The notes under the pieces are model-generated. The model was not told where the DNA came from, did no database searches, and saw only the letters and a list, made by a program, of their open reading frames with translations. A stretch of 31,700 nucleotides of DNA from a virus. Positions 55 through 31,700 of the stretch are shown piece after piece. The translations under genes were made by a program, and so were the position numbers. The DNA is taken from positions 1 to 31,700 of IMG/VR virus record IMGVR_UViG_3300044729_001702. One strand, written 5' to 3'. Positions within the stretch are counted from its first letter, which is position 1, and every line of letters starts with the position of its first letter.

Positions 55-295
55 TGACTCGCCGTCGATCTCGCCGGAGCAGTTCGCCGCTCGGTTCGGC
101 ATCAGCCGCGACACCGTCTATCGCTGGATCAAGCAGGGCCGGCTTGATCCGATCCCGATCGGGCCTCGCGTCTGGCGGTTCCGTCCGTCGCAGGTTGAGG
201 CGTTCATCAACGAGCCGAGGCGCGAGACGCAGTACGTCCACATTGACGAGAACCCAGGAACCGCTTGGGCAAACCGAAACGAGGTGAACCGATGA
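38..295 (+). CDS. Helix-turn-helix DNA-binding protein (excisionase/MerR-like HTH_17 type)
   Basis: An 85-aa protein. Residues 10-57 fit the short DNA-binding domain of the excisionase/HTH_17 group: S-P-E-Q-F-A-A-R-F-G-I-S, then D-T-V-Y-R-W-I-K-Q-G-R-L as recognition helix, then a wing-like segment with P-I-G-P-R-V-W-R-F. The start at 38 has a strong Shine-Dalgarno (AAAGGAGG at 23-30), which lies inside the last codons of the ERF gene, so the two are translationally coupled. It overlaps the next gene by ATGA. In temperate phages such proteins are often called excisionases, but no integrase is visible here. A role as transcription regulator or replication accessory is as likely. A second, identical copy is at 31044-31301. 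Confidence 0.85.
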   Translation: MESRSDDSPSISPEQFAARFGISRDTVYRWIKQGRLDPIPIGPRVWRFRPSQVEAFINEPRRETQYVHIDENPGTAWANRNEVNR

Positions 296-801
296 GACTG
301 ATCGACATCAGCGCAGACATGCAGGCGCTCGACGACCTGCTCGCCGAGGTCGGCGGCGACGTTTCCGATCCCAAGGTCGCCCAGATCGTCGACGCTTGGT
401 TCAACGAGCTTGACCACAGCTTGACGGCCAAGATCGACAACTACGCGGCGCTCATCTCGACGATGCGAGCACGGGCAGACATCCGGAGAGCCGAGGCCGA
501 GCGGCTCGCGCGTCGCGCCCAGGTTGACGAGGCGTCGGCCGACTGGCTCGCGTCAAGGCTGCTCGCAGCTCTCGACTCGCGAGGTATGAAAAAGGTCGAG
601 ACCGATCGGTACGCGGTCTCGGTCGTCGGCAACGGTGGAAAGGCTCCGCTCCTCGTCGACGGCGACGTGCCGGCGGAGTTCCTGAAGACCGTGACGAAGG
701 TCGAGCCGGATCGGGAAAGAATCCGGCTTGCCATCGAGGCCGGTCAGGATGTACCGTTCGCCAGACTCGGCGAGCGCGGGAAGCGCCTCGCCATTCGCTG
801 A
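292..801 (+). CDS. Siphovirus Gp157-family protein
   Basis: A 169-aa protein matching the architecture of the Siphovirus Gp157 family. An N-terminal helical part opens with I-D-I-S-A-D-M-Q-A-L. A long coiled-coil core follows (about residues 40-95, with K-I-D-N-Y-A and A-E-R-L). Then comes a short beta region, a P-A-E-F-L segment and the terminal A-G-Q-D-V-P-F-A-R-L signature. The family was named from Streptococcus thermophilus phage genes and usually sits next to single-strand annealing or SSB genes, as here; its molecular role is not settled. I chose ATG 292 over the in-frame ATG at 265 because 292 overlaps the upstream stop as ATGA. The second copy at the right end carries Arg instead of Lys at residue 100. 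Confidence 0.85.
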   Translation: MRLIDISADMQALDDLLAEVGGDVSDPKVAQIVDAWFNELDHSLTAKIDNYAALISTMRARADIRRAEAERLARRAQVDEASADWLASRLLAALDSRGMKKVETDRYAVSVVGNGGKAPLLVDGDVPAEFLKTVTKVEPDRERIRLAIEAGQDVPFARLGERGKRLAIR

Positions 802-886: not shown

Positions 887-1750
887 ATGGAACGATGGAT
901 TCCCGTAGACGTTGACCTCTTTCGGAAGCCGAAGTTTGTAGCACTATGCCGGACTATGCAAGTCGGCCGGTTTGAGGGAGCCGGCCGCGTGCTCGCGATC
1001 TGGTGCTGGGTTCAATCCTACGGGCCGCAGACGACGTTAGACGCGTCCGCGGTCGATGAGGCGACCGGGACACCTCCCGGCACTACAGACGCTCTAATCG
1101 CCTCTGGGTGGGCCTCGGCCAACAAGCGGTCCGGCACGATCCGATTCTCGTGGCCCGGCGAGACGCTGGCGGAGATCCGGGAGCGGCGGTCTGAAGCCGG
1201 CCGTCGAGCCGTCCGTGCTCGCTGGGATCGAGTCCGTGCCGAGCAGGCTGACGGATGCGATGCCGATACGGGCGTATTACGGGCGAACTACAAGACTGAG
1301 AGTAAGACTAAGACCAAGACAGAAAACCAAGGACTGGAGCCTATCGGCTCCAGTCTTGTCCCGGTCGATGCCGAAACGCCATCGACCGCGACCGACAGCG
1401 ACCGGAGACCGCCGCGAACCGTTGCCATCGGATGGCATCCGGAGGACGGGTTTGCTGGGATCACCGACGCCGATCGGCGTGCCTGGGCGGCGGCGTATCC
1501 GGCGGTCGACATCGACGCCGAGCTCGCGAAGTCTCACGCATGGCTCGCGGCTGAGGCTCCGTCCGGTCGATGGCGAAACGTACGGGCCGGCCTGCGGCGC
1601 TGGATGGCACGCAGCCAGGCGTACGCCGATCGTCGTTCTGCCGGGCCGCATTTGACGAAATCAAACGTGGGCGGGACACTCCCGCTCGGATGCTGGATCG
1701 ACGCCGAGGGCGTCGCACGAACCGCGAGCGGTGCTCCGCTCGACCGTTGA
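887..1750 (+). CDS. Replication-initiator-like protein
   Basis: A 287-aa protein. The N-terminal part (residues 1-110) resembles the winged-helix region of phage replisome organisers (W-I-P-V-D-V-D-L-F at the start, then helices). A charged linker rich in Lys, Thr and Glu covers about residues 125-150. The C-terminal part (about 180-250) has the pattern I-G-W-H-P-E-D-G-F, then A-W-A-A-A-Y-P, then W-L and a terminal R-R-W-M-A-R-S-Q. That pattern is common at the end of phage replication proteins of the O type. It probably binds the phage origin and recruits helicase. The start is set by GGAG at 876-879, eight bases before ATG, within a 14-bp start cassette reused at three other genes. A strong hairpin and AAGAC repeats lie inside the linker-coding region. 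Family placement is inferred from pattern only. Confidence 0.6.
   Translation: MERWIPVDVDLFRKPKFVALCRTMQVGRFEGAGRVLAIWCWVQSYGPQTTLDASAVDEATGTPPGTTDALIASGWASANKRSGTIRFSWPGETLAEIRERRSEAGRRAVRARWDRVRAEQADGCDADTGVLRANYKTESKTKTKTENQGLEPIGSSLVPVDAETPSTATDSDRRPPRTVAIGWHPEDGFAGITDADRRAWAAAYPAVDIDAELAKSHAWLAAEAPSGRWRNVRAGLRRWMARSQAYADRRSAGPHLTKSNVGGTLPLGCWIDAEGVARTASGAPLDR
1292..1358. other. Possible replication origin inside initiator gene
   Basis: Four AAGAC words begin at 1292, 1304, 1310 and 1316, followed by an A-rich stretch. A perfect inverted repeat follows: GACTGGAGCC 1332-1341, loop TATC, GGCTCCAGTC 1346-1355. With one bulged base it extends to CAAG 1328-1331 and CTTG 1355-1358. The region encodes the low-complexity linker of a replication-initiator-like protein, the same arrangement as the lambda origin inside gene O. 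The structure is directly visible; the origin function is inference. Confidence 0.4.
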
Positions 1751-7707: not shown

Positions 7708-9063
7708 ATGCCGCTCCAGTTCAGACGAGGAACCGACGCCCAGCGGACCGCGGTCACTCCGGCCGCAGGCGAACCGATCTGGGTGACCGATACCCAGGCG
7801 TTGTACGTCGGCGACGGCTCGACCGCCGGCGGAGTCGCGATCACCGGCGGAGGCGGCGGCGGCGGAGCGCCGACGAACCTCTCCTACCTCGTCCTGACGG
7901 CCTCGACGAGCCTCTCGGCCGAGCGCGTGCTTACCATCGGGACCGGTCTCGCCTCGACTGACGCCGGAGCCGGCGGAGCGTTGACGATCGCGATCGGGAC
8001 GCACGCCGCATCGTTCATCAACTCCGGGACCGTCGCGCTCGCTCGCGGCGGTCTCGCTGCCGACATCAGCACGACAGGCGGAGCCGGGCAGGTGTTGAAG
8101 CAGACGAGCGCCGGCGGAGCAGTCAGCGTGGCCGCTCTTGTCGCGGCCGACCTGCCGACTCACACACACTCGGCAAGCGACATTGCCAGCGGGACGCTTG
8201 CGCTTGCTCGCGGCGGTCTTGCCGCTGATATCTCCGGCTTCGGTCCTGGCTTCCTGCGGCAGACAGCGCTCGGAGCTGCGGTCAGCGTGAGCGGCCTTGT
8301 CGCGACAGACCTTCCGACGCATAACCACGTCGCCTCAAACATTACGAGCGGTACGCTTGCGCTCAGCGTCGGAGGCCTTGCGGCCGACATCTCGACGACC
8401 GGCGGCGCGGTTCACTTCCTCAAGCAGACCGCAGCCGGCGCGGCCGTCAGCGTCGCGGCAGTGGCGGCGACCGACATCGGAACGAGCGGAACGCCGTCGA
8501 CCTCGACGTTCCTTCGCGGTGACATGACCTGGGGCACGCCGGCCGGCGGAGGTGGCAGCGGAACCAAAACCTACGCGACGTTCACTCCGCTGAATAATCA
8601 GCCGCCTACCGGCACGTCAGGCTTTGCGACTCTCGACACGCGATCGGCAGGTGTCGCCGTGCTCGACTTTGATTCGACCGCTCTGGAGTCGGCCATCTTC
8701 GTCGGCTGCTTGCCTGAGGCAGCGGTGACCACGAACGGCCTCAAGGTACGGTTGGCCTGGACTGCGGATACCGTGACGAACACCGACGCGGTCGTATGGG
8801 CGATCCAGTGGCAGCGGATCGACACGTCTACCGACCTCGATACCGACGCGTTCTCGAACACCGTCACCGCTACGGCAGCGGCGAGCGGCACGGCCGGCGT
8901 CCCGGTCATTACCGAGATCACGATCACGGGAACGGCGAACCTCGACTCGCTGGTCGCAGGCGACTTCTACCGCATCAAGATCAGCCGCGACGGCACGAAC
9001 GCGAGCGACGCGCTCACCAACGACGCGTGCCTCGTCGGCGTCGAGATCCGGGACGCCACCTAA
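7708..9063 (+). CDS. Tail fibre / receptor-binding protein with internal repeats
   Basis: A 451-aa protein. Residues 2-42 match a common fibre opening (L-Q-F-R-R-G-T-D, then L-Y-V-G-D-G-S-T-A-G). A poly-Gly hinge follows (48-53). Three imperfect repeats of about 54 residues begin at 106, 161 and 214, each starting S-G-T-x-A-L and containing G-G-L-A-A-D-I-S and L-K/R-Q-T. Two carry P-T-H-x-H, an HxH motif used for metal binding in trimeric fibres. A Gly-rich linker at 279-285 leads to a C-terminal beta domain (about 287-451, with A-T-L-D-T-R and V-L-D-F-D) seen at the ends of several phage tail proteins. It probably binds the host surface. Confidence 0.8.
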   Translation: MPLQFRRGTDAQRTAVTPAAGEPIWVTDTQALYVGDGSTAGGVAITGGGGGGGAPTNLSYLVLTASTSLSAERVLTIGTGLASTDAGAGGALTIAIGTHAASFINSGTVALARGGLAADISTTGGAGQVLKQTSAGGAVSVAALVAADLPTHTHSASDIASGTLALARGGLAADISGFGPGFLRQTALGAAVSVSGLVATDLPTHNHVASNITSGTLALSVGGLAADISTTGGAVHFLKQTAAGAAVSVAAVAATDIGTSGTPSTSTFLRGDMTWGTPAGGGGSGTKTYATFTPLNNQPPTGTSGFATLDTRSAGVAVLDFDSTALESAIFVGCLPEAAVTTNGLKVRLAWTADTVTNTDAVVWAIQWQRIDTSTDLDTDAFSNTVTATAAASGTAGVPVITEITITGTANLDSLVAGDFYRIKISRDGTNASDALTNDACLVGVEIRDAT

Positions 9064-10184: not shown

Positions 10185-10715
10185 ATGGGAATGAAGTTGC
10201 ATATCGGAGGCTCGGAACGCCGGGCCGGATGGACTGTAGTCAATATCGCTTTGGGCGATCACGTCGATATCGTTGCCGACTGCCGCGCGATCCCGGTCGA
10301 GCCGAATACCTGCGACGAGGTATACGCCAGTCACGTTCTAGAGCACATTGAGAAGGCCGAAGTAGGAAAGACGCTACGGCACTGGCACGATCTGCTCGTG
10401 CCCGGAGGCCGGCTACGCGTCGCGGTTCCGGATCTGCAAACGCTTTGCAGGCTCTACGTTGATGACCGGATCTCAACCTACGGCACGTGGCAACTTGTGT
10501 CCTACATCTACGGCGGTCAGACGAACGCTCACGACTACCATCGGTGCGGATTCTCAGAGGACACGCTTCGATCGGCGCTTGAGGAGACCGGCTACGCCGC
10601 GATTCGGCAGGTAGCGGAGTTCGGAGAGTTCCGCGACTGCTCGTACGCGCATTTCCTGAACGGGTCTATCTCGCTCAATATGGAGGCGATCAAGCCGTGC
10701 GAACCGAACGCGTAA
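10185..10715 (+). CDS. SAM-dependent methyltransferase (class I)
   Basis: A 176-aa methyltransferase. The SAM-binding start is L-H-I-G-G (5-9). Then come V-N-I, D-I-V-A-D (28-32), C-D-E-V-Y-A-S-H-V-L-E-H-I (43-55), L-V-P-G-G-R-L-R-V-A-V-P-D (71-83), and a C-terminal helix/strand part with G-F-S-E-D-T-L. This pattern belongs to small methyltransferases often found beside glycosyltransferases in surface-polysaccharide clusters, so a sugar or small molecule is as likely a substrate as nucleic acid. Either ATG 10185 or ATG 10191 could be the start. Its C-terminal half is visibly related to the N-terminus of the protein at 18987-20090. Confidence 0.8.
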   Translation: MGMKLHIGGSERRAGWTVVNIALGDHVDIVADCRAIPVEPNTCDEVYASHVLEHIEKAEVGKTLRHWHDLLVPGGRLRVAVPDLQTLCRLYVDDRISTYGTWQLVSYIYGGQTNAHDYHRCGFSEDTLRSALEETGYAAIRQVAEFGEFRDCSYAHFLNGSISLNMEAIKPCEPNA

Positions 10716-11860
10716 CCGTCGCCTCGCTGCTCTTTGATCCCGCCAACGTCCGCAAGCACGGCGAGCGCAACCTAGACGCGATCAAGGCGAGCCTCGCGCG
10801 GTTCGGCCAGCAGAAGCCGATCGTGGTCGATGGCGATGGCATCGTCCGTGCCGGAAACGGAACGCTGATGGCGGCAAAGTCTCTCGGCTGGGACGAGATC
10901 GAGATCGTGCGTACGAACCTGCGAGGATCGGAGGCTACCGCCTACGCGATCGCCGACAACCGTACGGCGGAACTGGCCGAGTGGGACGAGGGAGCGCTCG
11001 CCGAGCAACTGGCCGCGCTTCAGATTGACGACGAGGCGCTCGCGGCCGCGACGGGATTCGACGCGAGCGAGATCGAGCGTATGGCGTTGCCGGTCGAGGT
11101 CGTCGAGGACGATGTGCCGGAAGTGCCGGTCGATCCGATCACGAAGCCGGGCGATCTGTGGCTGCTCGGCGAGCATCGGGTTCTGTGCGGAGACTCGATG
11201 GATCGGGACGCTATCGCGAGACTTTACGGAGGAGATTCCGTTGACTACATTCTGACCGATCCACCTTATTGCTCGGGTGGATTCCAAGAATCAAAAAGGA
11301 CGATCGGTTCGACGCAGGCCACGATCGGCACGGCGATCGCACGCGACAACTTGACCACAGAGGGACTGTCAAATCTGATCGAGGCAAGTATCGGAAGGCT
11401 TCCTTGCGATGGAGCGTGTTACGTGTTCTGCGACTGGCGACAAATCTTTGCCATCCGCAAGGCAATTGAACCGCTTGGCTATCAGTATCGGGCGCTCTTG
11501 ATATGGGACAAGGGAAATCCTGGAATGGGCGGACCGTGGCGACATGCATATGAGATGTGCTATTTCGGGACGAAACGCAAAGAGCCGCCCACCGGGAAGT
11601 CTGGCGACATAATCAGATGCAACCGTTCCGGCAATGAGCATCACACGACCGAGAAACCCGTGCAACTCATTTCGGCCATCATCGACAACACGATTGGAAC
11701 AAGCATTGCCGACCCGTTCCTAGGCTCCGGCACGACGCTCATCGCCGCCGAGCAACTCGGCCGCAAGTGCTACGGCATGGAGATCAGCCCGGCCTACTGC
11801 GACGTGATCGTGAAGCGGTGGGAGACGCTGACCGGTAAGAAGGCGACGCTCGCCAGGTGA
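10697..11860 (+). CDS. ParB-domain DNA methyltransferase (N6-adenine/N4-cytosine)
   Basis: A 387-aa two-domain protein. Residues 1-95 are a ParB/Srx-like domain (V-A-S-L-L-F-D-P-A-N-V-R, I-V-R-A-G-N-G, A-I-A-D-N-R-T-A-E-L). Residues 150-385 are an amino-methyltransferase with catalytic D-P-P-Y at 188-191, placed before the SAM motif D-P-F-L-G-S-G-T-T near 338; that is the beta order. Phage enzymes of this type methylate the genome, usually to evade restriction. The GTG start overlaps the previous gene by 19 nt. The part from about 11225 to 11720 is more AT-rich (161 GC in 300 bases at 11401-11700) than the rest of the gene, suggesting a recombined segment that includes the target-recognition region. 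Confidence 0.88.
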   Translation: MRTERVTVASLLFDPANVRKHGERNLDAIKASLARFGQQKPIVVDGDGIVRAGNGTLMAAKSLGWDEIEIVRTNLRGSEATAYAIADNRTAELAEWDEGALAEQLAALQIDDEALAAATGFDASEIERMALPVEVVEDDVPEVPVDPITKPGDLWLLGEHRVLCGDSMDRDAIARLYGGDSVDYILTDPPYCSGGFQESKRTIGSTQATIGTAIARDNLTTEGLSNLIEASIGRLPCDGACYVFCDWRQIFAIRKAIEPLGYQYRALLIWDKGNPGMGGPWRHAYEMCYFGTKRKEPPTGKSGDIIRCNRSGNEHHTTEKPVQLISAIIDNTIGTSIADPFLGSGTTLIAAEQLGRKCYGMEISPAYCDVIVKRWETLTGKKATLAR

Positions 11861-12273: not shown

Positions 12274-13478
12274 CGATCGCAGCCATAGAACTTCCGCCGC
12301 TCTATCGGAAGCAGCACGATGCGATCTGCGATCCGGCTCGATTTGTCGTCATCGAGGCGAGCACGAAGAGCGGCAAGACTGCCGGCTGCCTGCTCTGGAT
12401 GCTTGAGTACGCGTGGAACCGGCCGAACTCGACGTGCTGGTGGGTCGCTCCAACGTTCGAGGTCACCAAGACGGTCGGCTTTGAGCGGCTCGCGGCGATG
12501 CTACGGGACGCAGATCCAGAGAAACGGATCTGGGAAGACAACACGTCGCGGCTAGTCATCAAGCTCGCCAACGGCTCGAAGGTCGCGTTTAAGTCAGCCG
12601 ACAACCCGGACAGTCTGTACGGCGAGGACGTTCACGCCGCGGTCATCGACGAGGCGACGCGCTGCCCCGAAGAATCGTGGCACGCGGTCCGATCGACGCT
12701 GTCGGCCACACGCGGACCGTGCCGGATCATCGGCAACCTCAAGGGCCGGAAGAACTGGGCATACAGGCTGGCAAGACTGGCCGAGGCCGGAACTGAACCG
12801 GACTGCGCGTATCACAAGCTCACCGCTGCCGACGCAGTCGCCGGCGGCGTGCTTGCCTCTGACGAGGTCGAGGCGGCGAAGCGGCAACTTCCCGACCATG
12901 TCTTTCGCGAGCTCTATCTTGTCGAGGCGTCGGACGATGGAGGGAACCCGTTCGGCCTCGACGCGATTCGTGCGGCGATCCGACCGCTCAGCACGGCCGA
13001 GCCGGCGGCGTTCGGGATCGATCTGGCCAAAACGACCGACTGGACCGTGATCCTCGGCCTGGATTCAACCGGCACCGTCTGCTACCTCGACCGGTTCCGG
13101 CTCGACTGGCAGGCGACACGCGAGCGGATCGCATCGACCATCGGCAAGGTGCCGACGCTCATCGACTCGACCGGAGTCGGCGATCCGATCGTCGAGGATC
13201 TCCAGCGCGGCCGGCCCAGCGTCGAGGGCTTCAAGTTCACCGCAACGAGCCGCCAGCAACTGCTCGAAGGACTCGCCGCGGCAATCCAGCGGAGCGAGGT
13301 TCGGTTCCCTGAAGGCTTCATCCGCATCGAGCTTGAGTCCTTCGAGTGGGAATCGACGCGTACCGGCGTTCGATACACTGCACCGGCGAGTCTGCACGAC
13401 GATGGCGTTATGGCGCTCGCCTTGGCCGTACGTCGAGCGGCGAACCGGCCGGCTACGTTCCGCTTCCGAGTCATCTGA
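12270..13478 (+). CDS. terL: Terminase large subunit
   Basis: A 402-aa packaging motor. The ATPase part has a Walker A-like E-A-S-T-K-S-G-K-T (29-37), the V-A-P-T-F-E segment (59-64) and a Walker B with catalytic Glu, A-V-I-D-E-A (124-129). The nuclease part has F-G-I-D-L-A-K-T-T-D (about 247), I-D-S-T-G-V-G-D (about 290) and H-D-D-G-V-M-A-L-A near the end, supplying the RNase H-like acidic residues. It cleaves and pumps concatemeric DNA into the prohead through the portal. The start is TTG 12270, set by the TTGA overlap with the small subunit. It is somewhat short for the family. Confidence 0.92.
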   Translation: MTIAAIELPPLYRKQHDAICDPARFVVIEASTKSGKTAGCLLWMLEYAWNRPNSTCWWVAPTFEVTKTVGFERLAAMLRDADPEKRIWEDNTSRLVIKLANGSKVAFKSADNPDSLYGEDVHAAVIDEATRCPEESWHAVRSTLSATRGPCRIIGNLKGRKNWAYRLARLAEAGTEPDCAYHKLTAADAVAGGVLASDEVEAAKRQLPDHVFRELYLVEASDDGGNPFGLDAIRAAIRPLSTAEPAAFGIDLAKTTDWTVILGLDSTGTVCYLDRFRLDWQATRERIASTIGKVPTLIDSTGVGDPIVEDLQRGRPSVEGFKFTATSRQQLLEGLAAAIQRSEVRFPEGFIRIELESFEWESTRTGVRYTAPASLHDDGVMALALAVRRAANRPATFRFRVI

Positions 13479-16258
13479 TGCTCGATCGAATCCGATCCCT
13501 GTTCCGACGCAAGCAGGCAGACCAGCAGCAGGTCAACCGATACCTCCGTGCGTCGCTCGGGATCATCTCCGGCGGTTCGGGCATTGACCATCGGCCGGTA
13601 TATACGGCGACCGCAGCGGTCCGAAAGTACCGCTCGTGGGTTTACGCAGCGGCCCAGATAAACGCCTTTGGCGTCTCGGCCGTCCCGCTGCGGCTTTACG
13701 TCAAGGGAGGCACGGGCCGCAAGTTGTACCGGACGGCAAAGCCGGCAAGAGGACGCAAGGCGTACCTCTTAGGTGATGCAGAGCGTACGCCGTCGCGATC
13801 CGTGCTCGCAAAGATGCACGACTTCGGAGCCGACTTCGAGGAGGTCACCGAGGCGCATCCGGTTCTCGACCTGCTCCGCAAGGTCAACCCGGCGATGAAC
13901 GGGTTCGACCTGGCGGCGACTCGTACGCTCTGGCAGGAGTTGACCGGGAACGCATATCTGCACGTGATCCCGAACACCCTTGGCGTTCCGGCTGAACTCT
14001 GGCCGATGCCGCCGCAATGGGTCGAGATCATTCCCGATCCGCAGAAGTTCATCGCCGGCTACCTGTACGGCCGCGAGACTCAGAACAAGGTCACGCTCGC
14101 GACCGATGAAGTGCTGCACTTCAAGCGACCGAACCCGGCCGACCTGTTCTACGGTCTCGGCAAGGTTGAAGCCGCCTGGGGCGCTGTCGATCTGAACGAC
14201 GCATTCCACGAGATGGACCTTGCCTTTGCGGCGAACCACGCTCGGCCCGACTACCTCGCGACGATCAAGAACGAGGACGCGAGCGAGGACGCTATCGCTG
14301 AGTTCGAGCGTGCCGTCAACGAGCGACTTCGAGGTCCGGGCAAGGCCGGCAAGTTCATCGCTCTAACCGGGCAGGTAGACCTAAAGCCGATGGCGTTCCC
14401 TCCGAAGGATCTCGGCGGTCGCGACGAGATCGTCGAGGAGATCGCAGCGATCTTCGGCGTGCCTGTCTCAATGCTCAAGGCGAACGATCCGAACCTCGCA
14501 AGCGCATCTACAGGATTTGCGCAATGGCGTGAATCGACCATCCTCCCGCTGCTTCGGCTCGACGAAGAGACGCTCAACCAGAAGCTCCTTCCGATGTTCG
14601 GCTTACAGGACGAGGCCGTCCTTGCATACGATGATCCGGTTCCCTCGAACCGGGCGCTCGACTTGCAGGAGCATCAAGGCCTCATCTCGTCCGGCGTGCT
14701 GACCATCAACGAGGTTCGCGAGCTCCGCGGCTTCGATCCTCTCGACATTCCCGACGCCGACGTTCCGATCGTTGGCGGGATGCCGCTCGGCAGCGGTCTC
14801 GATCTCGGCGGCGACCAGACGGTCGCGCCGGCGCAGGCCGCTCCCGAGACGGTTCCGCAAGCGACATCGCAGCCGGTTCCGGAGGCTACCGTCGCAGCGG
14901 AAGCGCCGCAGGAGACCGTAAAGGCGATTACGGCAGACGCTCCGGCCCGATACGCCGAGATCGACTTCACGCCGACCGAGGAGATGGCCGACGCGGCCAA
15001 TCGCGGCCTTCGGCTCCGAGGCGAGTTCAATCGCGGCGGAACCGAGATCGGCGTCGCTCGTGCGACGCAACTCAAGAACCGCGAGGTACTGTCGCCGGAC
15101 ACCGTCCGACGCATGGCGTCCTACTTTGCTCGGCACGCCGTAGACAAGCGGCCTGGCTGGGATGATCCGGCGAACCCTTCCGCCGGCTTCATCGCGTGGC
15201 TGCTCTGGGGCGGCGACGCCGGCCGAGACTGGTCGGAGCGGATCGTCGAGCGGATGAACCGTGCCGACGATGCCGAAGACGGCACGAAGCAAGCCGACGA
15301 CTGCGTCTCGGAGAAGATCCGAACCCTGATGAACGAGGGCTATCCGCAAGACCAGGCGATCGCGATCGCGATCGACTACTGCGAGAGCAAGGCCAAGGGA
15401 TGCGGATGCACGCACGGAAAGATCGTCAAGCAGTCTGAAGACTGGGACGACGAAGGGTTCCACGTCAAGGCGACGCGGTACACGCCGCAAGAACTGAGAC
15501 TCATCAAGCAACTTGAACGCCGGCTGCTCAACGTAGGACGTGAGCGAATCGCGGCGATGGTCAAGTTTCTTCTCGCAACGGATCTAGAAGGGCAGGACTT
15601 GATTGACCGCGCCATCAATCAGCTCGGCCCGGCAAAGTTCGCAGCCGACTTGCGAGATGCGGCACGGCCAGCGCTTCTCGATGTTGTCGAGGCTGGCGGC
15701 GCAAAGGGCGTCAAGATCGTAGAGGCCGAACTGCGAAAGGCCGGAAGGACTCCCGATCCTGTCTCGTTTGACTTCGTGAACGAGGACGTGCAGAAGTGGG
15801 TCAATCGCTCGACGACGAAGCTCGCTGACGGCGTCGGCGGAACTACGGTTACGCGTTGTCGCGATCTGCTCGGCAAGGGACTTGAGGAAGGCAAGACCAT
15901 CGATCAACTTGCAGACGACATTGCCGAGCGCGGCTTTGACGCCAAGCGAGCGCGAGTCATTGCGAGGACCGAGTCGGCACGTGCCTACGTTCAGGGACAG
16001 GTCGAGGCCTGGCGTCAGTCCGATGTCGTCGCCGGCAAGAAATGGCTCGTCGCTCCTGGTGCCTGCGAGTTCTGCACGGCCATCGGTCGCGAGAGTCAGA
16101 CGAAAGGCATCGACGACGCGTTCTATACAGTCGGCGACAGCGTGAGCGGAACGGAAGGCGGGACGTACGTCGTTGACTTCGAGAACGTCGTCGGTCCTCC
16201 GCTTCATCCGAACTGCACGTGCGACCTCATCACCGTTCTCAAGGACCGCCCAGAATGA
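13478..16258 (+). CDS. Portal protein fused to a MuF-type head-morphogenesis domain
   Basis: A 926-aa multidomain protein. Residues about 1-420 are an HK97-like portal (R-K-Y-R-S-W-V-Y-A-A-A, L-T-G-N-A-Y, F-K-R-P-N-P, I-F-G-V-P-V-S-M-L). A Pro/Ala/Glu-rich linker covers 445-490. Residues about 494-595 are a conserved phage domain (A-D-A-A-N-R-G-L). Next is a cysteine-flanked helix of the type E-G-Y-P-Q-D-Q-A-I-A-I-A (607-640). Residues about 650-926 are a MuF/SPP1 gp7-like domain with C-E-F-C-T-A-I-G and the terminal H-P-N-C-T-C-D. MuF proteins usually enter the prohead as separate minor proteins. ATG 13478 sits in a TGATG overlap with terminase and replaces the longer shadow start at 13346. 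Confidence 0.88.
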   Translation: MLDRIRSLFRRKQADQQQVNRYLRASLGIISGGSGIDHRPVYTATAAVRKYRSWVYAAAQINAFGVSAVPLRLYVKGGTGRKLYRTAKPARGRKAYLLGDAERTPSRSVLAKMHDFGADFEEVTEAHPVLDLLRKVNPAMNGFDLAATRTLWQELTGNAYLHVIPNTLGVPAELWPMPPQWVEIIPDPQKFIAGYLYGRETQNKVTLATDEVLHFKRPNPADLFYGLGKVEAAWGAVDLNDAFHEMDLAFAANHARPDYLATIKNEDASEDAIAEFERAVNERLRGPGKAGKFIALTGQVDLKPMAFPPKDLGGRDEIVEEIAAIFGVPVSMLKANDPNLASASTGFAQWRESTILPLLRLDEETLNQKLLPMFGLQDEAVLAYDDPVPSNRALDLQEHQGLISSGVLTINEVRELRGFDPLDIPDADVPIVGGMPLGSGLDLGGDQTVAPAQAAPETVPQATSQPVPEATVAAEAPQETVKAITADAPARYAEIDFTPTEEMADAANRGLRLRGEFNRGGTEIGVARATQLKNREVLSPDTVRRMASYFARHAVDKRPGWDDPANPSAGFIAWLLWGGDAGRDWSERIVERMNRADDAEDGTKQADDCVSEKIRTLMNEGYPQDQAIAIAIDYCESKAKGCGCTHGKIVKQSEDWDDEGFHVKATRYTPQELRLIKQLERRLLNVGRERIAAMVKFLLATDLEGQDLIDRAINQLGPAKFAADLRDAARPALLDVVEAGGAKGVKIVEAELRKAGRTPDPVSFDFVNEDVQKWVNRSTTKLADGVGGTTVTRCRDLLGKGLEEGKTIDQLADDIAERGFDAKRARVIARTESARAYVQGQVEAWRQSDVVAGKKWLVAPGACEFCTAIGRESQTKGIDDAFYTVGDSVSGTEGGTYVVDFENVVGPPLHPNCTCDLITVLKDRPE

Positions 16259-30133: not shown

Positions 30134-30254
30134 CCTGATCCTCTGCGGCCTCGCGGCCGCGATCCTCGTCCCGATGGCATTCCTCCCGTTCCTCGTCGCG
30201 GCCGGCGAGCGAGACGGGATCGTCAAGACCGGCCGCTCTGGAGATGACCGATGA
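30120..30254 (+). CDS. 44-aa single-pass membrane peptide
   Basis: ATG 30120 opens a 44-aa frame. Residues 5-28 form one strong membrane helix (L-I-L-C-G-L-A-A-A-I-L-V-P-M-A-F-L-P-F-L). A short charged tail follows (G-E-R-D-G-I-V-K-T-G-R). The stop overlaps the ERF gene start as ATGA, matching the coupling style of the real genes here. Early membrane peptides of this size in phages can block superinfection or alter host membrane proteins, but nothing here shows which. Confidence 0.6.
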   Translation: MSTPDLILCGLAAAILVPMAFLPFLVAAGERDGIVKTGRSGDDR

Positions 30255-31060
30255 AGCCTGATAAGAAAGAACCGCTTGCGGCGGCGTTCGCCGCGGCACT
30301 TGCCGAGATGCCGTCGCCGGCGCTCGACAAGGTGAACTCGGCGTTCGGCCGGTTCAAGTACGCGAGCCTCGGATCGTTCCTCGAAACCTGCCGACCGCAC
30401 CTCGCGAGGTTCGGCCTCGGACTCGCGTCGGATTTCGAGCCGATCGCGGACGGGAATCTGATGTGCTGGACTGTCATCCGCGACGCGACCGGCGAAACGC
30501 TGCGGCTCGCGCCGGTCCCGGTCAAGGTCGATCTCGCGAAGCCGCAGGCGACCGGGTCGGCGATGACATACGCCAGGCGCTACAGCCTGTCGGCGGCGCT
30601 CGGAGTCGTCGGCGACGAGGACGACGATGGCAACGCCACGAACGAGCCGAAGCAGGTTCGGCAGGTCTCGATGCTGCAGGCTCACGCGGCGACGGCGAAG
30701 CCGGTCGCGAAGCCGGTCGCGAAGCCGGTCGCGAAGCCGGTCGATACGGTCGAGCTTGATGATGGCTGGGAACGCGTCACGATCGCCTCGGTCGAGACGA
30801 AGGACGGCCAGTCGGCCAAAGGACCGTGGCGACTCTACAGCGTTCACACGAGCGGCGGCGAGCGGTTCTCGACGTTCTCCGCGACGCATGGCGGACGAGC
30901 GCTCGAACTGGTCGGCGTCGAGGCTGACGTGCTCGTGAGGGAAACCGACCGCGGCATCGAGTTGCTCGACATCCGCGGCGCGAAGTCGATTGCTAAGCCT
31001 GTCGCGAAGCCGGTCGCACCGGCGACCACAAAGGAGGACGACGATGGAATCCCGTTCTGA
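30251..31060 (+). CDS. erf: ERF-type single-strand annealing protein with OB/SSB-like C-terminus
   Basis: A 269-aa protein. Residues 1-128 are the ERF annealing domain: F-K-Y-A-S-L-G (35-41), H-L-A-R-F-G-L-G-L (50-58), A-T-G-S-A-M-T-Y-A-R-R-Y-S-L (100-113), G-D-E-D-D-D-G (121-127). A K-P-V-A linker of four units follows (150-164). Residues 173-243 look like a small OB-type beta domain (W-E-R-V-T-I-A-S-V-E, W-R-L-Y-S-V, F-S-T-F-S). Then come two more K-P-V-A units and an SSB-like acidic tip, E-D-D-D-G-I-P-F. It anneals complementary ssDNA in recombination-dependent replication. The tip would recruit host SSB partners. It starts by ATGA overlap with the membrane peptide. Confidence 0.85.
   Translation: MKPDKKEPLAAAFAAALAEMPSPALDKVNSAFGRFKYASLGSFLETCRPHLARFGLGLASDFEPIADGNLMCWTVIRDATGETLRLAPVPVKVDLAKPQATGSAMTYARRYSLSAALGVVGDEDDDGNATNEPKQVRQVSMLQAHAATAKPVAKPVAKPVAKPVDTVELDDGWERVTIASVETKDGQSAKGPWRLYSVHTSGGERFSTFSATHGGRALELVGVEADVLVRETDRGIELLDIRGAKSIAKPVAKPVAPATTKEDDDGIPF
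30695..30742 (+). repeat. 12-bp tandem repeat encoding K-P-V-A
   Basis: Four identical 12-bp units (GCGAAGCCGGTC) in the ERF gene. Related units recur at 30992-31003 (degenerate) and 31004-31015, flanking the OB-like domain. The repeat is in frame and codes a flexible linker. The window's left edge falls inside the last unit, which suggests it influenced where the contig was cut. Confidence 0.85.
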
Positions 31061-31301
31061 TGACTCGCCGTCGATCTCGCCGGAGCAGTTCGCCGCTCGG
31101 TTCGGCATCAGCCGCGACACCGTCTATCGCTGGATCAAGCAGGGCCGGCTTGATCCGATCCCGATCGGGCCTCGCGTCTGGCGGTTCCGTCCGTCGCAGG
31201 TTGAGGCGTTCATCAACGAGCCGAGGCGCGAGACGCAGTACGTCCACATTGACGAGAACCCAGGAACCGCTTGGGCAAACCGAAACGAGGTGAACCGATG
31301 A
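31044..31301 (+). CDS. Helix-turn-helix DNA-binding protein (repeat copy)
   Basis: Identical to the gene at 38-295 and part of the terminal redundancy. Here its true upstream context is visible: the ATG lies 17 bases before the end of the ERF gene. The Shine-Dalgarno AAAGGAGG (31029-31036) is made by the ERF codons for the acidic tip. Same function as the left copy; in the circular genome there is only one. Confidence 0.85.
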   Translation: MESRSDDSPSISPEQFAARFGISRDTVYRWIKQGRLDPIPIGPRVWRFRPSQVEAFINEPRRETQYVHIDENPGTAWANRNEVNR

Positions 31302-31700
31302 GACTGATCGACATCAGCGCAGACATGCAGGCGCTCGACGACCTGCTCGCCGAGGTCGGCGGCGACGTTTCCGATCCCAAGGTCGCCCAGATCGTCGACG
31401 CTTGGTTCAACGAGCTTGACCACAGCTTGACGGCCAAGATCGACAACTACGCGGCGCTCATCTCGACGATGCGAGCACGGGCAGACATCCGGAGAGCCGA
31501 GGCCGAGCGGCTCGCGCGTCGCGCCCAGGTTGACGAGGCGTCGGCCGACTGGCTCGCGTCAAGGCTGCTGGCGGCTCTGGACTCGCGAGGTATGAGAAAG
31601 GTCGAGACCGATCGGTACGCGGTCTCGGTCGTCGGCAACGGTGGAAAGGCTCCGCTCCTCGTTGACGGCGACGTGCCGGCGGAGTTCCTGAAGACCGTGA
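31298..31700 (+). CDS. Siphovirus Gp157-family protein (repeat copy, truncated by window end)
   Basis: The first 134 codons of the gene at 292-801, running off the window. Compared with the left copy it has four silent third-position changes and Lys100 to Arg. No stop or frameshift occurs. It is not a pseudogene; it is cut only by the contig end. Confidence 0.85.
   Translation, partial: MRLIDISADMQALDDLLAEVGGDVSDPKVAQIVDAWFNELDHSLTAKIDNYAALISTMRARADIRRAEAERLARRAQVDEASADWLASRLLAALDSRGMRKVETDRYAVSVVGNGGKAPLLVDGDVPAEFLKTV

Follow-up and report, generated by a model that had tools for sequence, protein, structure and literature searches.

In annealases of the ERF family, the ERF domain forms an oligomeric annealing core, and in single-stranded DNA-binding proteins (SSBs) the residues I-P-F of the tail bind partner proteins. 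T7 gp2.5 unites an OB fold, annealing activity and an acidic C-terminal tail in one protein; unlike the protein described here, it has no ERF domain and uses one fold for both jobs. The bacterial SSB family (PF00436) has the acidic I-P-F tip in common with our protein, although a match to its profile is absent at E ≤ 10. Almost 80% of the erf modules of Firmicutes phages have ssb beside erf (PMC8093625). On DNA coated with SSB, Sak80alpha can anneal only if its own C-terminal domain (CTD) and the seven C-terminal residues of the phage SSB are present (PMC11846896), and Sak4 of HK620 requires the six residues at the end of its SSB (PMC5928155). The Sak80alpha–SSB80alpha pair of staphylococcal phage 80alpha (PMC11846896) resembles our case in that a Rad52/Erf-type annealase works with an SSB tail; there, however, the tail with which the CTD cooperates belongs to a separate SSB, whereas the annealase reported here bears the tail itself. 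A further likeness is offered by the phage SSBs encoded beside erf (the Rogunavirus AKS96 gp31 type and canonical PF00436 SSBs), which bring together an SSB annotation, a low-complexity linker, an acidic IPF tip and an erf module, but the SSB is a separate gene, whereas the equivalent part in our locus is fused to the ERF domain, and sequence similarity is weak. In the one library of literature searched, we found no description of an ERF protein with an SSB-type tail.

Here we analysed a 31,700-nucleotide stretch of viral DNA (IMG/VR record IMGVR_UViG_3300044729_001702, hereafter the window), in which the ERF protein and its parts are laid out as follows.

30251–31060, plus strand: 269-residue ERF annealase with a fused, predicted OB domain and an SSB-type tip (translation, Pfam, PHROG)
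30281–30658, plus strand: ERF (single-strand annealing) domain, residues 11–136 (Pfam PF04404, AlphaFold2, Foldseek)
30659–30751, plus strand: flexible, poorly conserved linker with KPV(A) repeats, residues 137–167 (sequence; pLDDT about 40–55)
30767–30979, plus strand: predicted OB-fold domain, residues 173–243 (β-β-β-α-β-β, pLDDT 92–95; Foldseek OB matches)
30983–31030, plus strand: second linker with KPVA repeats, residues 245–260 (sequence; low pLDDT)
31031–31057, plus strand: SSB-type acidic tip KEDDDGIPF, residues 261–269 (sequence, conservation; disordered in the AlphaFold2 model)

The reading frame is open throughout and its translation ends in ...APATTKEDDDGIPF, the last residues being KEDDDGIPF, so that ERF domain, KPVA linker, OB domain, second linker and tip follow one another in a single chain. 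The ERF motifs that the initial annotation had placed at residues 35–127 are borne out by PF04404, which scores 69.4 bits (cut-off 25; E = 4.5e-19) against residues 11–136 and thereby places the protein in the ERF superfamily, and by a match of the reading frame to the PHROG Erf at 4e-30. The signature G-S-A-x-T-Y-x-x-R-Y ... D-E-D-D-D-G-N is common to our protein and the superfamily (PF04404; P22 Erf, Gp77), and the ERF domain of the AlphaFold2 model, with pLDDT mostly above 90, shares its fold with the solved Gp77 (PDB 9y6u), the best Foldseek match (E = 7.3e-6, TMt 0.74). Two further claims of the initial annotation stand in part. KPVA linkers do flank the β-rich domain, with repeats at about 151–164 and 248–257, but the repeats themselves are not conserved, as loci L003 and L004 have other Pro/Lys/Ala-rich linkers in their place; likewise, the tip likened to the DDDIPF-type end of bacterial SSB is an acidic IPF end, but one in which a glycine sits between DDD and IPF.

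To model the second domain, AlphaFold2 was run on 46 aligned sequences of the full protein, and the OB domain was also modelled alone. The β-rich region first noted at residues 173–243 was predicted as β-β-β-α-β-β at a pLDDT of about 94 (strands 173–188, 191–200 and 205–208, helix 211–219, strands 224–232 and 235–243). Modelled alone, it showed the same elements in the best of five models (pLDDT 92.4, pTM 0.79; the others down to 42). In the model, residues 173–243 thus have the OB topology, a barrel of five strands whose third and fourth are linked by a helix, and Foldseek likewise returned OB folds rather than an unrelated fold. For the full model, Gp77 came first, followed by the OB folds of PrgE, Ta0387, Teb1, SsbA and a mycobacterial SSB; the isolated domain matched Teb1, RPA70, SSoSSB, Streptomyces SsbB and LEF-3 (TMq 0.44–0.70), together with the OB-fold B subunits of toxins, which bind sugars. 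Since this list mixes ssDNA binders with toxin B subunits, it supports an OB fold and not a particular function; against the PDB, nothing fell below E = 0.001 for the domain. Among viral models, its best Foldseek match (TM 0.87) covers the whole domain and lies within a 274-residue uncharacterised phage protein, with named phage ssDNA-binding proteins ranking next. By hand count, the domain is slightly acidic.

At the level of sequence, the affinities of the OB domain are faint. A search of PDB sequences with the OB profile gave a best E of 0.33, with a telomere-binding protein on top, and the best match among 50,697 phages, weak at E = 2, is an SSB gene that immediately follows an erf without a tip. 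Among the reading frames of the collected loci, phmmer matched the domain to that erf-adjacent SSB, which itself ends in DEEDIPF, at E = 0.011, and hhalign matched it to the phage SSB profile at E = 1.7e-4 (44% identity over 34 columns, probability 49%), the latter obtained with the OB domain alone after a third SSB had been added to the profile. When the OB domain and tail were aligned together with the AKS96-type SSB, only the tail aligned. Taken together, these comparisons are suggestive of homology between the OB domain and phage SSB.

Four viral contigs carry the whole architecture at 61–97% identity, and all four keep the tip, which the initial annotation had proposed to seek in close homologues. 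Their tips read EDDDGIPF, DDDVEIPF, DDANDIPF and EDANDIPF; while the linkers diverge among the four, the acidic residues and I-P-F are retained. Between the window and L003, identity is 86% in the ERF part (105/122) and 46% in the OB part (36/78), which indicates that the two parts differ in evolutionary rate or were exchanged. A search of bacterial genomes for related loci yielded one full-length match, on a contig in a Coriobacteriia metagenome-assembled genome, which is probably the same virus as L002.

The two ends of the window, 1–694 and 31007–31700, overlap over 694 bp with 5 mismatches, all at 564–657. This suggests that the record is near-complete and derives from a genome of about 31.0 kb that is circular, circularly permuted or terminally redundant; strain variation or an assembly effect may account for the mismatches. 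Once the overlap is closed, a gene for a Sipho_Gp157/Gam-like protein comes next in the recombination module, which also holds a replication-initiation-like gene.

265–801, plus strand: Sipho_Gp157/Mu Gam-like end-protection protein (Pfam 3.1e-32, PHROG 3.6e-24)
887–1750, plus strand: replication-initiation-like protein of the same recombination module (PHROG 3.1e-9)

The window further encodes a RusA-type resolvase and a metallophosphatase that matches a DNA repair exonuclease family. Elsewhere in the window, a protein with an Mtd_N (major tropism determinant N-terminal) domain lies at 7708–9063, and as no reverse transcriptase (PF00078) was matched in the window, there is no sign of a diversity-generating retroelement. 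For the reading frame at 10697–11860, PHROG matches point both to a ParB-like partition/nuclease and to a DNA methyltransferase, an apparent ParB–methyltransferase fusion, and a 970-residue reading frame at 13346–16258 combines portal and head-morphogenesis matches.

Because the terminal overlap indicates a nearly complete genome, the absence of a separate SSB can be tested. No PF00436 match was found in the window at E ≤ 10, and among its reading frames of at least 40 residues, the only other one ending in [ILVM]PF runs antisense within the portal gene and is not a credible tip; the observation that no separate phage SSB is visible therefore holds. The scanned genes of the window contain no polymerase, helicase or SSB, which makes reliance on host replication proteins plausible. 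Among the records collected, those with a tip-bearing ERF contain a separate tip-ending reading frame (within the loci covered) or an SSB-family match in 0/26 cases, and those with a tipless ERF in 22/50, a count by PF00436 or tip that small tipless SSBs outside PF00436 escape. For records of at least 20 kb, Fisher's test gives p = 0.009; counted by clusters and by the tip alone, the figures are 0/9 versus 20/56 (p = 0.048), and p = 0.16 under the strictest flank rule, the exclusion amounting to few independent points because few lineages account for the tip-bearing records, many of which are fragments. The tip-ending reading frames near tipless ERFs encode small proteins, some of them canonical SSBs and others members of different small families.

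How widely ERF proteins carry such tips was assessed on the ERF reading frames of all collected loci (160 distinct sequences in 90 clusters at 70% identity). Most members have another C-terminus, and 77 of the 90 clusters are tipless, as expected from the initial annotation, which held that ERF proteins normally lack the tip; the remaining 13 end in an [I/L/V]PF tip, a proportion that is not a population rate because all scans were seeded with tip-bearing proteins. Among the non-ERF reading frames of the same loci, 35/2065 end in [ILVM]PF, most of them SSB-like proteins themselves, so that the tip frequency on ERFs is above chance, with the ERF sample being tip-seeded. The tip-bearing C-termini are of several kinds: the OB type of the window, the sole kind with a predicted structure; a second kind that is OB-like by eye (L005, L015, L018); a third, also OB-like (L012, L027, L141, L142); a zinc ribbon kind ending in DDDLPF or DDDIPF (L078 and the L190 group); and others (L189, L193, L209, L226). 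Members of the zinc ribbon kind (L078, L188, L190–L192 and relatives) have a zinc-ribbon-like motif CPxC ... CKDKSC before the tip and form a distinct architecture to which many viral contigs contribute members. Homology between the OB domain of the window and the second and third kinds was undetectable by hhalign (E = 0.15 and 0.13), and neither of the latter has relatives in the 50,697 phage records; judged from these alignments, the OB types are likely separate acquisitions, a common but diverged origin being possible. The proteins at L012:2531–3352 and L142:1432–2256 are 92% identical over linker, domain and tip and 45% identical over the ERF part, indicating that a linker–OB–tip cassette has moved, with a junction near the linker.

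We interpret the 269-residue protein as probably joining an erf–ssb recombination module in a single chain. Its ERF domain would form the oligomeric annealing core, to which the tethered OB domain would probably add ssDNA contact, and every subunit would have, in its flexible acidic IPF tip, a counterpart of the C-terminal tail of SSB. The likely role of this tip would be to bring SSB-partner proteins, most likely those of the host, to the annealing site; alternatively, its partner could be an exonuclease or the initiator of the phage. Where a phage encodes annealase and SSB separately, the former acts together with the tail of the latter; here the annealase would carry that tail itself, making a phage SSB unneeded. 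Given that erf and ssb are neighbours elsewhere, and that Sak80alpha and Sak4 depend on SSB tails, the protein fits a fusion of both partners. Against this reading, OB folds also mediate protein contacts, and the OB domain here is slightly acidic; furthermore, the tip occurs on other ERFs that lack an OB domain. The idea of a fused module of OB domain and tip thus stands as an architecture, but the tip is not tied to that domain.

This last point bears on the strongest alternative, in which the tip works as a portable SSB tail and anchors ERF to repair proteins of the host or the phage, with the OB domain serving as an interchangeable spacer or oligomerisation domain without meaningful ssDNA binding. 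The tips on zinc ribbon and other C-termini make the tip look the more general feature and speak for docking; the OB domain is, however, conserved across the group, and its structural matches include many ssDNA binders, albeit with toxin B subunits among them, so we regard this alternative as unlikely, though it deserves serious weight. An intramolecular role, as proposed for SSB and T7 gp2.5, in which the acidic tail folds back onto the DNA-binding surface and regulates ssDNA binding, with recruitment secondary, would be permitted by the long flexible linkers on both sides of the OB domain, and the tail of E. coli SSB binds its own DNA-binding site weakly, according to work cited in PMC5928155. 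This role is improbable here, as the conservation centres on I-P-F and not on acidity alone. The weakest alternative concerns the gene that overlaps the tip.

31044–31301, plus strand: next gene, HTH_17, with its ATG among the tip codons and a 17-nt overlap with the annealase reading frame

A second copy of this gene at 38–295 (HTH_17 match, E = 5.7e-13) is due to the overlapping window ends. Its SD-like GGAGG also falls within the tip codons, and the tip could thus in principle be a functionless by-product of this start, a very improbable reading that is largely refuted, since the codon changes in L001 (CCG>CCT) and L002 (CCG>CCC) are silent in IPF while turning Arg into Leu or Pro in the HTH frame, marking the annealase frame as the conserved one, and tips such as those of L078, L189 and L190 overlap no downstream start; on these grounds chance or the overlap was rejected as the origin of the tip.

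Returning to the erf–ssb fusion, the ERF annealase itself is of a known kind; its interest lies mainly in the tail, which recurs on C-termini of unlike ERFs and in no record accompanied a separate SSB. How phage annealases cooperate with host or phage SSBs is an open practical question, as it bears on the hosts in which a recombineering enzyme works. With an SSB tail fused to it by nature, such a protein lets one ask whether the tail acts in cis, and it could yield annealases that are independent of a matching host SSB. More broadly, and tentatively, ERF proteins may have gained SSB-type tails repeatedly and independently, sometimes through swaps of linker–OB–tip cassettes; a module would then have to provide the tail in one of two places, the annealase or a separate SSB, and the fused annealases would be self-contained, acting as annealer, SSB and recruitment platform.
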